From assembly GCF_003781945.1 (NCBI RefSeq), contig NZ_RJJW01000003.1:11459-75458 (forward strand): DNA of 64,000 bases, in the 5' to 3' direction. The position numbers and the translations under genes are program-made. Positions 4,270 to 54,223 of the stretch are shown here, one piece after another. The first letter of the stretch is position 1; each line of letters starts with the position of its first letter. This stretch comes from Halorubrum sp. CSM-61 (GTDB lineage: Archaea > Halobacteriota > Halobacteria > Halobacteriales > Haloferacaceae). The notes below the pieces were generated by a model that worked only from the letters and a program-made list of their open reading frames with translations, ran no database searches and had not been told where the DNA came from.

Positions 4270-4496
4270 ACGCGACCGTCCCCGTCGCCGGTAAAAAGGG
4301 TTACACGCCGATTCACGCGGCTGATAACGGGTCGGAACCTGGGAGAGGGCCGTCTCAGATCCGAGCCGGTATCCCCGTCTCTCCCCGCTGAGCCGTCCGG
4401 CAACTGAAGCGGACTTCTGATCGACGGCGGGAGTACGTCTCTCAGTGTGATGGTGTGGCCATTTATAAGTCGTATCGGGATGTTGCTGTTGGTGAT

Positions 4497-4897
4497 TTAT
4501 AAGTGATCGACGCTGTGTTGACGACCTCCAAAGCCCCGGCCGCGAGGACTCGCGCGGCTCGCTGCGCGCCTCACTCGGTCGCTACCGCTCCCTCGTTGCG
4601 GTGCTTGCGTCGCCGTGCTTCGTCCTCGCGGCCGCCCCTTTGAGTCCCACCCACACCGCAACCGCACAGCCTCACACCCCCCCAGCCTCGCGGCTCACGG
4701 CTCGCGGCTTCGCCGCTCGCGTTCGCCGCGTCCAGCGAGGGACCTTCGGTCCCTCTGGCAGTCGGGCTTCGCCCGGCGACCTCGCGCGACGCTCCTCGCG
4801 CCCTACGGACGCTCGGAGGCACGCGCCACCGCACTTATAAGCGATCGTCGCTGTCACTCACAGTCGTTTAAATACTCACTCGTCGCCCCCGATCTGC
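4497..4897 (+). repeat. Hairpin-rich dispersed repeat, copy A
   Basis: This element fills most of the non-coding gap 4270-4954. It begins at TTATAAGTGATCGACG (4497-4512). Then come ACCTCCAAAGCCCC, a CCGCGAG/CTCGCG hairpin, CCCCTTTGAGTCCCAC and CAGCCTCGCGGCTC. A perfect hairpin (GAGGGACC, loop TTC, GGTCCCTC) and a second hairpin CGGGC/GCCCG follow, then the tail GGAGGCACGCGCCACCGC and a second TTATAAGCGATCGTCG (4835-4850). A further conserved tail with TTTAAATAC ends near 4897. Copies B and C share this order of blocks, except for one moved module in B. There is no credible ORF. It could be a structured RNA or a palindromic mobile element. Confidence 0.85.
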
Positions 4898-9893: not shown

Positions 9894-10285
9894 CTTACAG
9901 GTGATTGACGGTGGCTCGACGGTGAAGACCTCCAAAGCCCCAGCCGCGAGGACTCGCGCACCTCGTTGCGCTCCTCGCTCGTTCGCTCCGCTCACTCGCT
10001 GCGGTGCTTACGTCGGTGTGCTTCGCCCTCGCGGCAGGGCGAGAGCGAAGCTCTCGCTTGAAACCGGCGCGTAGCGCCGGTGACAGCGAGGCGCTTCGCG
10101 CCTCTGGCAGCCGGCGGCGAAGCCGCCGGCGACTGCCCCTTTGAGTCCCACCCGCCCGCACAGCACCGCAGCCTCACACCTCCCCAGCCTCGCGGCTCCC
10201 TTCGGTCGCCGCGTCCCTCGCGCGTGCTCCTCGTGGCCTATCGGCCACTCGGAGGCACGCGCCACCGCCTCGTTCATTTATATAC
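9894..10285 (+). repeat. Hairpin-rich dispersed repeat, copy B (rearranged)
   Basis: Same family as the copies at 4497 and 26795: it has the ACCTCCAAAGCCCCAGCC head, a GCGAGGACTCGCGC hairpin, CCCCTTTGAGTCCCAC, CAGCCTCGCGGCTC and the tail GGAGGCACGCGCCACCGC. The cassette CAGCGAGG...CTCTGGCAG...GCGAC lies before CCCCTTTGAGTCCCAC here, but after it in A and C. Its hairpins have different but still paired arms (GAGGCGC/GCGCCTC; GCCGGCGGC/GCCGCCGGC). An extra CCGGCGC/GCGCCGG hairpin and an AGAGCGAAGCTCTCG-type hairpin lie near 10040-10080. No coding capacity is evident. Confidence 0.85.
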
Positions 10286-10354
10286 AACGTAAGACGGTTG
10301 GGGGAGACGCCGATCGCGGAACAGTCCCTCTGACGCCGACGCCCCTCCCCCTAC

Positions 10355-12049: not shown

Positions 12050-13540
12050 CTACGACCAGTCGCCCAACGAGGCCTGCCCGTCGGCGTCGCGCGGGTCGGG
12101 CTCCGCCCCGTCGTCCGCGTCGCCCTCGCCTCGCTCTCCCGTGCTCGGCTCGTCGTCCACCCAGTCGGTGAGCTTCCCGCCGTCGCCGTCGGCGGCGACC
12201 GATCGGGGGCCGAGGTCGGTGTCGCCGTCGCCGTTGCGGCCGACGTTGCGTTCGCCGTCGCCGTCCCGGCTTCGTCCACTGCCTCCTCCCGCCCCGTTCC
12301 CGCCGTCCCCTCCCGGGTCGAACCCGCCGAGCGTCGCCTGATCGCTCTCGGCGAAGTCGAGCTTCGAGACGCGCACCCCGAGCTTGCGGACCCGGTCGCC
12401 GGCGAACTCGTCGAGGAGGTCCAGCGCCACCGACTCCACGAGGTCGGGGTCGTCGACGGGGCCGGGGAGGCTCCGGGCGCGGGTGTTCACCTCGTAGGGC
12501 GGCTCGACCGCCTTGATCCCGATGGTACGGTACAGACATCCCCGCTCTCGGGCGCGGCGGGCCACGTCGGCGGCGAGCGCGCGCACCGTCTCCCGCTTGC
12601 GCTCCTCGTCGGCCGTCGCCGACAGCGACGACTCCCGCGAGAGGCTCTTGGGGAGCCCCGTGGGCGTGACCTCCCGGTCGTCCTCGCCCCGCGCGCGCCG
12701 GTACAGCTCCCGGCCGCGGTCGCCGAGCTCCTCGCCGAGCCGGTCGGGGTCGGCGGCCGCGAGGTCGCCCGCGGTCTCGATCCCCAGATCCGCCAGCGTC
12801 CGCTCCGTCACCGGGCCGACGCCGTGGATCTCGGCGGTCGGCAGCGACGCGAGGAAGGGTTCCACTTCGCCCGGGGTGACGACGACGAGCCCGTCCGGCT
12901 TGTCGGCGTCGCTGGCGACCTTCGCGGTCGACATGTTCGGCGCGACGCCGACGCTCGCGGGCACCCCGGCCTCGCGCTCGATGCGCTGTTTGACGTGCCG
13001 GGCGTACCCCTCCGCCAGCGTCCGGACCTCGGCGGGGCCGGCCGCGGCGCTCGGCGGGGGATCGGCGGGGTCGCCGGCGGCGTCCCACGCGGTCCGGTCG
13101 GTGACGTCGAGGTACGCCTCGTCGACGCTCACCTCGCGGAGCGTGTCGGCGCAGTCGCGGAGGACGGCCTTCACGTCGCTCGCGACCTCCTTGTAGTAGT
13201 CGAGGTCGACGGGGAGATAGCGTCCGGCCTCCTCGGGATCGGGCGCGTCCGGGTCGTCGGGGTCGGCGTTCGCCCGCCGGGGGAGCAGGTCGAGCGCCTC
13301 CGATATCGGCATCGCGCTCTCGACGCCGAACGCGCGGGCCTCGTAGCTCGCGGTCGCGACCGCGCCGATCGTCTCGCCCGCCTCGTAGCCCATGCCGACG
13401 ACGAGGGGCTCGCCCGTCAGTTCGGGACGACGGAGGCGCTCGCAGGAGGCGTAAAAGCAGTCCATGTCGACGTGGAAGACGACGCGGTCGCTCCCCGCGT
13501 CGTCGTCCGCCTCGGTCCCCGGGAGCGTTCCGCCCGCCAT
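12050..13540 (-). CDS. dinB: DNA polymerase IV (Y family)
   Basis: 496 aa; translesion polymerase. The catalytic motifs are VFHVDMDCFYASCE (first metal Asp) and EVSVDEAYLDVT (second carboxylates). Motifs GVAPNMSTAKVASD and the helix-hairpin-helix VGPVTERTLADLGI follow, then the little-finger domain with TGLPKSLSRESSL. After about residue 410 there is an acidic Gly/Asp-rich tail carrying SDQATLGGF and, at the very C-terminus, GQASLGDWS, two sequences resembling PCNA-interacting peptides. The start at ATG 13540 gives MAGGTLPG; the frame continues upstream with shadow composition. It is divergent from the LOV kinase gene, starts 157 bp apart. Confidence 0.94.
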   Translation of the reverse strand: MAGGTLPGTEADDDAGSDRVVFHVDMDCFYASCERLRRPELTGEPLVVGMGYEAGETIGAVATASYEARAFGVESAMPISEALDLLPRRANADPDDPDAPDPEEAGRYLPVDLDYYKEVASDVKAVLRDCADTLREVSVDEAYLDVTDRTAWDAAGDPADPPPSAAAGPAEVRTLAEGYARHVKQRIEREAGVPASVGVAPNMSTAKVASDADKPDGLVVVTPGEVEPFLASLPTAEIHGVGPVTERTLADLGIETAGDLAAADPDRLGEELGDRGRELYRRARGEDDREVTPTGLPKSLSRESSLSATADEERKRETVRALAADVARRARERGCLYRTIGIKAVEPPYEVNTRARSLPGPVDDPDLVESVALDLLDEFAGDRVRKLGVRVSKLDFAESDQATLGGFDPGGDGGNGAGGGSGRSRDGDGERNVGRNGDGDTDLGPRSVAADGDGGKLTDWVDDEPSTGERGEGDADDGAEPDPRDADGQASLGDWS

Positions 13541-13697
13541 CGCCGGAGGCTCCGCGCCGCGCGCCCTTAAGAATCCGCCACGCGGGGCGGTAGTGGAACG
13601 GTACCACAGCGGTAGTGAAACCGGCGGGAACACCCGCGTCCTCACGACTGATATCCGGGCCGACATTCGTTTACCCGGAGGGCCCGAAGACCGCGCC

Positions 13698-15479
13698 ATG
13701 TCCGAACGGATCGACGTGTTACACGTCGACGACGACCCGTCCGTGCTGGACCTCACGGAGGCGTACCTCGAACGCGAGCTGGAGTCCGTCGCGGTGACGA
13801 GCGTCGCGGAGCCGTCGGCCGTACTCGAACGGCTCGACGAGGCGGAGTTCGACTGCGTCGTCAGCGACTACGACATGCCCGGCACCGACGGGCTGGAGCT
13901 CTTCGAGGCGATCCACGCCGACCACAGCCGGCTCCCGTTCGTCCTCTACACCGGGAAGGGGTCGGAGGAGATCGCCAGTCAGGCGCTCAACGCGGGCGTC
14001 ACCGGCTACTTCCAGAAGGGCGGCCCCGAGCAGCTCCGCCGGCTCGCGAACCGGGTCGAGCAGGCGGTCGAGGAGCACCGGACCCGCGAGATCGCCGACC
14101 GCTACTCGACGGTCATCGACGCGCTGGGCTACCCCGTCTACGTCGTCGACGAGACCGGCGTCTTCCGGTTCGTCAACGAGCCGTTCGCGGCGCTGACCGG
14201 CTACGACCGCGAGGAGATCGTCGGAAGCAAGCCGGGCCTGATCAAAGACGAGACGGCGGTTGCGGAGGCGGAAGACCGGCTCGGTCGGGTCCTCTCCAGT
14301 TCCGGGCCCGACGTGGAGCGCTTCTCGGTCGACATCGTCCCGAAGGAGGGCGGACCGATCCCCTGCCGGGACCACATGGCCGCGCTCCCGTACGAGGGCG
14401 AGTCGTTCGAGGGGAGCGTCGGCATCCTCCGGGACGTGTCCGACGAGCGCGCGCGCCGCGAGGAGCTGGAGACGAAGAACCGGGCGCTCGACGAGGCCCC
14501 CGTCGGCATCACGATCACCGACCCGGACCTGCCGGACAACCCGATGGTGTACGTCAACGACCGGTTCGTCGAGATGACCGGCTACGACCGCGAGGACGCG
14601 GTCGGCGTCAACTGCCGGTTCTTACAGGGCGCAGACACCGACGAGGAGACGGTCGCCCGGCTCCGCGAGGCGATCGACGCCGAGGAGCCGGAGAGCGTCG
14701 AGCTGTTGAACTACCGGAAGGACGGCACGCCGTTCTGGAACCGCGTCAGCGTCGCGCCGCTCCGCGACGGCGAGGGGTCGGTCTCGGAGTGGGTCGGCTT
14801 CCAGGAGGACATCACGGCGTTCAAGGAGCGCGAGGCGGCGCTCCAACGCCAGAACGAGCGGCTCGACGCCTTCGCCGGCATCGTGAGCCACGACCTCCGG
14901 AACCCGCTCAACGTCGCGCAGGGGCGCGTCGAACTGGCGCGAGAGGCGGCGGACGACCCGGAACACCTCGACGCCGCGGCCGACGCGCTCGACCGGATCG
15001 AGTCGATCGTGGAGCACACACTCACGCTCGCCCGCGAGGGCGAGACCGTCGGCGACCCGGAGCCGGTCGCGGTCGCCGGGGTCGCCGCCGACAGCTGGGA
15101 GACGGTCGACACCGGCGCGGCGTCGCTGTCGAACGAGGCGGACGGCGAGGTGTTGGCCGACCCGGACCGGCTCCGCAACCTGTTCGAGAACCTCGTTCGC
15201 AATTCGATCGAACACGCCGGCGACGACGTGCGGATCCGCGTCGGCGACCTCGAAGACGGGTTCTACGTCGAAGACGACGGGCCCGGGATCCCCGAATCCG
15301 TCCGCGACGCCCTCTTCGAGCCCGGGGAGAGCGGGGTCAACGGCAACACGGGCTTCGGGCTGGCGATCGTCCAGGAGATCGCCACCGCCCACGGGTGGAC
15401 CGTCGAGGCGGTCGACGCGGCCGACGGGGGCGCGCGCTTCGAGATCCGCGGCGTCCAGCGCCCGCCGCAGTCGGCGTAG
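13698..15479 (+). CDS. Hybrid sensor histidine kinase REC-PAS-LOV-HisKA-HATPase
   Basis: 593 aa, soluble. Receiver domain 1-125: acidic pocket Asp11-Asp13, phosphoacceptor Asp57 in SDYDMPG, Lys107. PAS at about 130-250. A second PAS at about 260-380 holds GVNCRFLQG (Cys306) and LLNYRKDGTPFWN, the signature of FMN-binding LOV photosensors whose Cys forms the light adduct. HisKA has SHDLRNPLN (His398); the HATPase has NLVRNSIEH (N box) and DDGPGIP. It probably senses blue light (or redox state via flavin) and phosphorylates an unlinked regulator; the receiver may be a phosphate sink or input. ATG chosen at the conserved receiver start. The divergent neighbour is DNA polymerase IV. Confidence 0.93.
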   Translation: MSERIDVLHVDDDPSVLDLTEAYLERELESVAVTSVAEPSAVLERLDEAEFDCVVSDYDMPGTDGLELFEAIHADHSRLPFVLYTGKGSEEIASQALNAGVTGYFQKGGPEQLRRLANRVEQAVEEHRTREIADRYSTVIDALGYPVYVVDETGVFRFVNEPFAALTGYDREEIVGSKPGLIKDETAVAEAEDRLGRVLSSSGPDVERFSVDIVPKEGGPIPCRDHMAALPYEGESFEGSVGILRDVSDERARREELETKNRALDEAPVGITITDPDLPDNPMVYVNDRFVEMTGYDREDAVGVNCRFLQGADTDEETVARLREAIDAEEPESVELLNYRKDGTPFWNRVSVAPLRDGEGSVSEWVGFQEDITAFKEREAALQRQNERLDAFAGIVSHDLRNPLNVAQGRVELAREAADDPEHLDAAADALDRIESIVEHTLTLAREGETVGDPEPVAVAGVAADSWETVDTGAASLSNEADGEVLADPDRLRNLFENLVRNSIEHAGDDVRIRVGDLEDGFYVEDDGPGIPESVRDALFEPGESGVNGNTGFGLAIVQEIATAHGWTVEAVDAADGGARFEIRGVQRPPQSA

Positions 15480-26794: not shown

Positions 26795-27193
26795 GGGGGC
26801 CGCGTAGAGGTATTTAAACTGTAGGCGCAGTTCCTCCACCGCTTATAAACGGTCGGCGGTGGCGCGTGCCTGCGAGCGGCCGAACGGCCGCGAGCAGCAC
26901 CGCGCGAGGTCGCCGGCGCGACGCGCCGGCTGCCAGAGGGACCGAAGGTCCCTCGCTGGAGTCGGTCGCCGAGCGAAGCGACGGCGACCGACGAGGCTGG
27001 GGAGGCGTGAGGCGCGGGGCGGTGCTGTGCGGCGTGGGACTCAAAGGGGCAGCCGCGAGGGCGAAGCACGGCGCAGCAAGTACCGCAGCGAGGGAGCGTA
27101 GCGACCGAGTGAGGAACGCAGCAAGCCGCGCGAGTCCTCGCGGCTGGGGCTTTGGAGGTGTTCGTCGTAGACACCGAGTCAACTATTTATAAG
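26795..27193 (-). repeat. Hairpin-rich dispersed repeat, copy C
   Basis: Read on the minus strand it starts at CTTATAAATAGTTGACTC, then ACCTCCAAAGCCCCAGCC, the CGCGAG/CTCGCG hairpin, CCCCTTTGAGTCCCAC and a CAGCCTCG block. Next come GAGGGACC/GGTCCCTC with a TTC loop, GCCGGCGCG/CGCGCCGGC, GCGGCC/GGCCGC, GGCACGCGCCACCGC, TTATAAGCGG and finally ACAGTTTAAATACCTC. Order of blocks equals copy A. Together with the cloverleaf-like element it fills the gap between the reductase gene and tRNA-Gly. Confidence 0.85.
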
Positions 27194-53029: not shown

Positions 53030-54223
53030 CTACGGTCGCCGATCGACGCCGCTGATCTCGAACCGGGTGCCGCCCTCGTTCCCGCCACCGATCCGCAGCT
53101 CCCACCCGTGGGCCTCGACGATCCGGTCGACGATCGCGAGCCCGAACCCCGTCCCGTCGGGCGACGACGTGAATCCGGTCTCGCGGACCCGATCCACGTT
53201 TTCCTCCGGGATGCCCGCGCCGTCGTCCTCGACGAAGAACCCGTCTTCCCCGTCGAGCGTGCCGACGCGAACGCTCACGTCGCTGCCGCCGTGCTCGACC
53301 GCGTCGCCGGGCTCCGCCCGGCTGCCCGTGGAATGGTTCGAAAACTCCGTTTCGGAGTTTTCGTCATCACGAGAGACGGCGTCGCCGTCTCTCGAACGAC
53401 CGTGTTCCACGCTGTTCCGGAAGAGGTTCTCGAAGACGTGCGACAGGCGGTCGCGGTCGGCCCGCACCGTCATCGACCCGTCCGCGCGGAGCGTCGCGTC
53501 GGCCGTGTCCACGCGCGACCAGCACTCGCGCGCGAACTCCGCGAGGTCGACGTCGTCGACCTCGTCGACGGTCTTCCCCTCGCGAGCGAGCGTGAGCGTC
53601 TCCTCGATGATCTCGTCCATCCGGTCGAGCGCGGGCCCGGCCGCCGCCAAGTGCTCGTCGTCCGGATGCGCCCGCCGGGCGAGGTCGACCCGCCCGCGGA
53701 CGACGTTGAGCGGGTTCCGGAGGTCGTGTGACACGACGCTCGCGAACTCCTCGAGCCGGTCCCGCTCGCGGCGGAGTTCGGCCTGTCGGACCCGACTCCG
53801 CTCCGCCGCGACCTCGCGTTCGATCGCCCTCGCCTCGAACACCCCGATGAGCAGCCCGATACCGCCGCCGAAGCCGATCGCCCAGCGAGTCCAGCCGAAC
53901 ACCTGAAACGAACTCTCCGTCGGCAGCGTCGCCATGAATCCGACGTTGACGAACAGGAACCCCGCCGCGCCGGCGATCCACCAGCGGTTGATCCGCCGGT
54001 GCCGAGTGGCGGAGAGGTCGGCCCCCGGCAGCCAGTAGACGACGTACGCGACGCCGAGCACGACCGCCATCGAGGAGAGGAATCCCACCCAGTAGCCGCC
54101 CGGGACGGTAACGAGGCCGAGCGAGAGGACCGCGGCTTCGGTGACGAGCGACAAGAGGAGTACGACGCTGAGTCCCCAAACGGGCCACAGCGAGCGGACG
54201 GCCGTGCTCGGCGTGTTGTCCAT
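53030..54223 (-). CDS. Membrane sensor histidine kinase with palindromic insertion
   Basis: 397 aa from MDNTPS. About four to six N-terminal helices and no PAS domain. A short coiled coil REVAAERSRVRQAELRRERDRLEE leads to HisKA with VVSHDLRNPLNVVRGR and HATPase with FENLFRNSVEHG, VEDDGAGIP and GTGFGLAIV. In the N-box loop, 37 residues (RSRDGDAV...GDAVEHG) are inserted compared with the LOV kinase at 13698, which goes directly from SIEHAGDDV to RIRVG. The insertion's DNA holds two perfect hairpins. No cognate regulator is adjacent. Confidence 0.9.
   Translation of the reverse strand: MDNTPSTAVRSLWPVWGLSVVLLLSLVTEAAVLSLGLVTVPGGYWVGFLSSMAVVLGVAYVVYWLPGADLSATRHRRINRWWIAGAAGFLFVNVGFMATLPTESSFQVFGWTRWAIGFGGGIGLLIGVFEARAIEREVAAERSRVRQAELRRERDRLEEFASVVSHDLRNPLNVVRGRVDLARRAHPDDEHLAAAGPALDRMDEIIEETLTLAREGKTVDEVDDVDLAEFARECWSRVDTADATLRADGSMTVRADRDRLSHVFENLFRNSVEHGRSRDGDAVSRDDENSETEFSNHSTGSRAEPGDAVEHGGSDVSVRVGTLDGEDGFFVEDDGAGIPEENVDRVRETGFTSSPDGTGFGLAIVDRIVEAHGWELRIGGGNEGGTRFEISGVDRRP
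53339..53394. repeat. Two back-to-back 11-bp hairpins inside the histidine kinase gene
   Basis: CGAAAACTCCG/CGGAGTTTTCG with TTT loop (53339-53363), then six bases, then CGAGAGACGGC/GCCGTCTCTCG with GTC loop (53370-53394). Both stems are perfect and keep the reading frame open. Confidence 0.85.

Follow-up and report, generated by a model that had tools for sequence, protein, structure and literature searches.

An in-frame insert in a Halorubrum sensor histidine kinase as a probable coding copy of a palindromic repeat dispersed in haloarchaea

Background

The RPEs of Rickettsia are short palindromic repeats that lie between genes and also in frame within protein genes, housekeeping genes included. 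The repeat described here resembles them in distribution, as a dispersed palindrome found both outside genes and in frame within them, with six orthologues free of the insert; the likeness rests on distribution, and membership of the RPEs is not claimed. RPEs are bacterial and scattered over many genes and sites, whereas the haloarchaeal element has two hairpins and recurs class-wide at one codon position of one domain.

RPE-4 and RPE-6 have been filed as CGTC REPs (PMC3733652). REP/BIME sequences (GTAG and CGTC super-families) are likewise small hairpins, often dimers, with known intragenic copies (PMC3733652). These intragenic copies lie at varied sites, recB of two Xanthomonas being hit at about the same site (PMC3733652). 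In contrast to REPs, the element here has no associated RAYT, a GTAG or clear CGTC tag is not established for it, and the phyla listed in PMC3733652 are bacterial. The feet of its 45-bp unit are RRGCA and GAC, and DH1, the second repeat in the insert, terminates in CCA, as CGTC REPs do at their tail, with CGTC absent at the expected place.

The PATEs and SMRs of Haloquadratum walsbyi (PMC3119063) share several traits with the element here: they are haloarchaeal, transposase-free, short, without target duplication and mutually nested, and the PATEs are palindromic. However, PATEs match the ends of IS605-type transposons, which the element here did not do in the window genome, and the passages of PMC3119063 consulted contain no in-frame kinase insertion for PATEs or SMRs. 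In the open literature searched, neither kinase N-box inserts nor in-gene palindromic elements of haloarchaea were found described, and a class-wide single-site hotspot was not found either.

In-gene palindromes have been scattered curiosities in a few bacteria; here, one kind occurs at a single codon position in most sampled haloarchaeal genera. Such a natural system lends itself to questions about the movement of small palindromes for which no transposase is known, about the route by which selfish DNA turns into protein, and about whether an added loop affects a kinase at all. The insert analysed here is probably (at roughly 0.8) the coding form of a palindromic repeat that is dispersed in haloarchaea and recurs at the kinase N-box.

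Anatomy of the kinase insert

The window, a stretch of 64,000 nucleotides from Halorubrum sp. CSM-61, encodes a sensor histidine kinase in which RSRDGDAVSRDDENSETEFSNHSTGSRAEPGDAVEHGG follows the N-box NSVEHG. The features of the gene and its insert, all on the minus strand, are as follows.

53033..54223, minus: host gene, membrane sensor histidine kinase with HisKA and HATPase_c, 397 aa (ORF and Pfam)
53300..53410, minus: whole in-frame insert VEHGRSRDGDAVSRDDENSETEFSNHSTGSRAEPGDA, 111 bp (alignment to the empty orthologue L048)
53400..53410, minus: first VEHG copy GTGGAACACGG, forming the 5' arm plus the loop of hairpin A in the 45-bp unit
53334..53399, minus: DH1, a 66-bp double hairpin TCGTTCGAGA...TCTCGTGATGACGAAA...TTTCGAACCA in the loop of hairpin A (boundaries from three unrelated contexts and covariation)
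53370..53394, minus: DH1 hairpin 1, CGAGAGACGGC-GAC-GCCGTCTCTCG, perfect 11-bp stem
53339..53363, minus: DH1 hairpin 2, CGAAAACTCCG-AAA-CGGAGTTTTCG, perfect 11-bp stem
53303..53333, minus: remainder of the 45-bp unit, with hairpin A 3' arm TTCCAC, linker GGGCA, hairpin B and GAC (match to covariance model R1 at 53303-53347, E 9e-6)
53306..53322, minus: hairpin B, GCCGGGC-GGA-GCCCGGC, 7 bp
53289..53299, minus: second VEHG copy GTCGAGCACGG, running on into the downstream codons of the orthologue (orthologue alignment)

Alignment with the closest orthologue, from H. salipaludis (L048), places exactly 111 extra bp, or 37 codons, between AACAGC and GTCGAGCACGGC, in agreement with the 37 extra residues that the preliminary description had counted after the N-box helix. 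That description had also reported two perfect 11-bp hairpins within 53339-53394. Both are present, with 3-nt loops, but the whole insert spans 53300-53410 and holds two hairpins that went unmentioned: a third of 7 bp (hairpin B) and a fourth (hairpin A) that is split in two. The three-hairpin score was matched by 1 of 20,000 synonymous-codon resamplings of the same peptide.

Without DH1, the remaining 45 bp of the insert are GTGGAACACGGTTCCACGGGCAGCCGGGCGGAGCCCGGCGACGCG, encoding VEHGSTGSRAEPGDA, and 42 of these 45 bases are identical to a kinase unit of another genus (L234). DH1 is therefore located in the hairpin A loop of a 45-bp unit, itself a double hairpin (GTGGAACACGGTTCCAC plus GCCGGGCGGAGCCCGGC) whose first hairpin encodes VEHGST. 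What had been taken for a single, isolated palindromic insertion is palindromic indeed, but consists of two nested repeats, with DH1 splitting the loop of hairpin A, and belongs to a class-wide phenomenon.

The VEHG codons recur at the end of the insert, as first noted, the copies GTGGAACACGG and GTCGAGCACGG being identical at 9 of 11 bases; the first copy, however, belongs to the inserted 45-bp unit. A simple target-site duplication was set aside as less likely, because other inserted units match this first copy, whereas the second runs on in the codons of the orthologue, and the two differ at 2 of 11 bases. The repeat is accordingly read as part of the inserted unit and not as a clear target duplication.

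In six Halorubrum species the orthologues (L048-L053) have an empty site, where the loop is short and reads NSVEHGGSDVTVRVG or a close variant of it; these are the insert-free alleles that the preliminary description had proposed to seek. The LOV kinase of the window (ORF 13464-15479, motif NCRFLQ) has the short loop NSIEHAGDDVRIRVG and, as previously claimed, no insert. The roughly 40 HATPase_c matches of the window genome include only one kinase insert that is complete and two that are partial; thus, the kinase hotspot is lineage-dependent. Two further kinases of this genome (L033, G000:C7:181566, and L029, G000:C4:162399) have the first part of the same insert (NSVEHGRSRDG...), of which only a fragment is retained, as if it had been partly deleted.

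Copies between genes and in other genes

The basic intergenic element is 44-48 bp long and consists of hairpin A, the linker RRGCA, hairpin B and then GAC; in hairpin A, the variation among copies is strongly compensatory. The covariance model R1, built from 21 intergenic copies and zero kinase sequences, detects kinase units at E values down to 1e-9, and dozens of kinase inserts in all. Applied to the window, it identified the kinase insert (E 9e-6) and four non-coding double-hairpin copies.

4737..4780, plus: non-coding copy, R1 E 1e-10
10039..10084, plus: non-coding copy, R1 E 5e-8
10088..10133, plus: non-coding copy adjoining that at 10039..10084, R1 E 5e-6
26909..26954, minus: non-coding copy, R1 E 5e-11

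The window genome contains at least 36 R1 copies among the 150 of 8,953 candidates scored, genome-wide counts for it being lower bounds. In a phylum-wide sample, R1 matched 13 of 15 haloarchaeal genomes (the order of the window) versus 0 of 85 other genomes. A pattern for hairpin B only, applied to 30 one-per-genome loci and read by eye from a table, returned 13 two-hairpin copies (five at kinase N-boxes and eight non-coding), the other loci being chance matches. The DNA pattern of one long hairpin B type was found as a kinase copy only, in seven genomes, and its reverse complement is present between genes in Halorubrum. An Rfam scan of the repeats identified no family for the elements, with only sub-threshold sot0042, HgcC and one CRISPR-repeat match nearby.

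The window also carries three copies (4460-4860, 9930-10300 and 26830-27190) of a composite intergenic repeat of about 350-400 bp, CAAAGCCCCAGCC ... CTGCCCCTTTGAGTCCC ... CCCCAGCCTCG ..., with many further copies in Halorubrum. The composite comprises several hairpin elements, has TTATAA-like boxes on its flanks in most cases, and is perhaps transcribed into an RNA or else an island of nested repeats.

In other genera, in-frame copies lie in genes for PurH (AICARFT_IMPCHas), a PNP_UDP_1 phosphorylase, and DUF7097, CCG-domain and DR2241-type proteins. The element thus acts as an in-gene palindrome of a general kind, for which the kinase N-box is the favoured or best-tolerated place. Within the window genome, an in-frame copy lies in a gene that we take, from its sequence, to encode a heavy-metal P-type ATPase (L385, G000:C7:6095-6136), and tandem in-frame copies lie in a presumed CHY-zinc-finger-like protein (L388, G000:C7:54805-54891).

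Hairpins in mRNA can regulate expression, and the strong pairing of the coding strand would suit a structure kept for control of kinase translation or mRNA stability. This explanation is very improbable, however, as the insert is absent from most kinases of the same genome and from all six orthologues, and copies occur at many unrelated intergenic places.

DH1 as a dispersed repeat

The search for the hairpin pair that the preliminary description had suggested revealed a dispersed repeat: the DH1 linker TCTCGTGATGACGAAA has 37 exact matches in 20 of 52 Halorubrum genomes, and its reversed control has none. In kinase N-boxes DH1 is 63 or 66 bp long, always a multiple of three; it measures 58 bp in a larger intergenic repeat and 56 bp in another non-coding place in two genomes. 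The unrelated flanks of these three contexts fix its boundaries. An empty version of the intergenic site exists in L007 (cgctcgctg^cgctcctcg). The tips of DH1 vary with compensating changes: 99% of cells are paired, both-side changes number 42 versus 15 in shuffles, and the covariation score is 0.297 versus at most 0.094 in slid versions.

The ends of DH1 are weakly inverted (TCGTTCGA/TCGAACCA, 7/8), and target duplication is not evident at its insertion points in the three contexts. These two observations do not support a MITE. In L141 and L151, sub-threshold Rfam matches to sot0042 (sense overlapping transcript RNA) lie about 140 nt downstream of a DH1 copy and are perhaps remnants of a TnpB element.

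Conservation of pairing

Hairpin A pairs third codon positions, that of the Val codon with that of the Ser codon (V3:S3) and that of the Glu codon with that of the Gly codon (E3:G3). Watson-Crick pairs occur at V3:S3 in 89 of 110 kinase units versus 49 expected (maximum in 20,000 shuffles, 67) and at E3:G3 in 93 of 110 versus 54 expected (maximum 71), a contrast with the shuffles that relatedness of the units inflates; off-register control pairs show no excess. In hairpin B the stem is kept by compensating sets that change the peptide: CCTGAC...GTCAGG (PDSQARQ), CCTCCT...AGGAGG (PPSQAQE) and CCTCGG...CCGAGG (PRSQAPE). The conserved feature is DNA pairing, not protein.

A selected flexible acidic linker, with the palindromes as a by-product of codon use, would explain why the encoded S, T, G, D, E and R suit a halophilic surface loop and why the frame is preserved in nearly all cases seen. 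Yet the covariation is synonymous, the amino acid sets compensate so as to keep the hairpin, the element also lies between genes, orthologues lack the insert and synonymous resampling reached its score once in 20,000 attempts. This protein-level reading is largely refuted already and retains little credibility. The original view of the insert as an in-gene palindromic element is supported by the empty orthologues, the dispersed repeat and the conserved pairing; the insert is neither common to all orthologues nor conserved as amino acids in place of the palindrome.

Recurrence at the kinase N-box

Of the 145 haloarchaeal genomes, 89 have VEHGST[SG] inserts, identified by the codon pattern EHGST[SG], and the inserts extend over 37 of the 58 genera; the control matches two. 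In 83 of 90 loci inspected, the motif lies in frame at a kinase N-box; one more locus is a frame-broken kinase, and the other six are chance readings. Kinase units are often in tandem, at 45, 48 or 51 bp, with up to five per gene (L185). The kinases concerned are diverse. In a tree of 141 kinase cores, a sample enriched for inserts, insert presence switches at least 27 times; the window kinase is nested in it with strong support among insert-free kinases. The repeated VEHGSTS strings of haloarchaeal kinases are to be annotated as DNA repeats, not as protein motifs.

In L166, a kinase with a VEHG unit has its frame broken shortly downstream of the insert (ORF of 79 aa), possibly an inactivating insertion. 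Single N letters within the tandem arrays of L222 and L223 (G149) suggest that assemblies collapse or misjoin at the repeats.

In one genome (G116), six kinases are 93% identical across the unit; their identity falls to 71% over the preceding 45 bp, which hold conserved N-box codons, and to 45% further upstream. The codons AACAGCGTGGAACACGG to the left of the insert are identical in most filled Halorubrum kinases. Both patterns would be expected if the units arose once in an ancestral kinase and spread among kinase paralogues and species by homologous recombination or gene conversion and unequal crossing-over, with no continuing insertion of intergenic copies: unit identity far exceeds flank identity between paralogues, the N-box codons could serve as anchors, most filled Halorubrum kinases have their left codons in common, and arrays keep a fixed spacing of 45, 48 or 51 bp. 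Recombination alone is nevertheless somewhat unlikely, given that intergenic copies are built on the same two-hairpin plan, that a model free of kinases detects kinase units, that in-frame copies lie in unrelated genes, and that DH1 occurs both in kinases and between genes.

Consequence for the protein

Across haloarchaeal kinases, the units add a loop of 15 to 90 residues. An AlphaFold2 model of the window kinase (28 sequences) has a mean pLDDT of 75, with residues 275-314, corresponding to the insert, as the sole stretch below 50; they lie between the N-box helix (257-277) and a strand (317-322). In the model the loop is disordered and lies exposed at the surface, consistent with the position first assigned to it. 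Because this predicted loop is also distant in sequence from the H-box and G-boxes, it is plausible that the kinase tolerates the insert, which may be neutral to its function. A splicing domain with catalytic residues (intein or self-splicing) was not found in the insert, which comprises 37 disordered codons.

Origin and spread

The coding copy proposed above would have arisen as a 45-bp coding-adapted form in which hairpin A reads GTN GAR CAY GGN TCN ACN (V-E-H-G-S-T), placed in frame at the N-box codons. Since the unit itself carries VEHG, its insertion would leave the N-box helix intact and create a new VEHG site, so that further units could be added in tandem at 45, 48 or 51 bp, as the arrays suggest. 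In the window kinase, the 66-bp DH1 would have entered the loop of hairpin A afterwards. Spread between non-orthologous kinases and between species, after the original insertion, would most likely have proceeded by short-tract copying anchored on the N-box codons. Selection on the mobile structure may have kept the pairing perfect, or quasi-palindromes may have been corrected by template switching, a process known from other organisms. The protein would have gained an acidic, serine-rich, disordered surface loop that it tolerates. A bolder version, which we advance tentatively and at less than even odds, is that of a transposase-free archaeal mobile palindrome that homes to GTNGARCAYGG (VEHG), restores motif and target with each insertion and has in this way remodelled kinases throughout Halobacteria.

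Transposons and transposases

Y1 transposases are the movers of REPs and of IS605 relatives, and they are encoded in 100 of 145 haloarchaeal genomes. The two hairpins could in principle be the fused end-palindromes of an IS200/IS605-family transposon, a PATE reduced to its termini and moved in trans by a Y1 transposase. Haloquadratum PATEs can be 52 bp long, with two palindromes and no target duplication (PMC3119063), and the elements here likewise show no obvious target duplication. Such an origin is nonetheless improbable: the 17 TnpB loci of the window genome all lack a convincing R1 match at their ends, and Y1_Tnp matches are absent from four Halorubrum genomes in which copies or inserts occur (G001, G007, G015 and G029). 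Dependence on a Y1 transposase of the GTAG REP type (RAYT) is not supported by these four genomes either.

Upstream of a TnpB gene of the window genome, the region L402 (G000:C21, 290-980 of the reverse strand) packs eight perfect palindromes with arms of at least 8 bp into some 700 bp and looks like another repeat-rich element.
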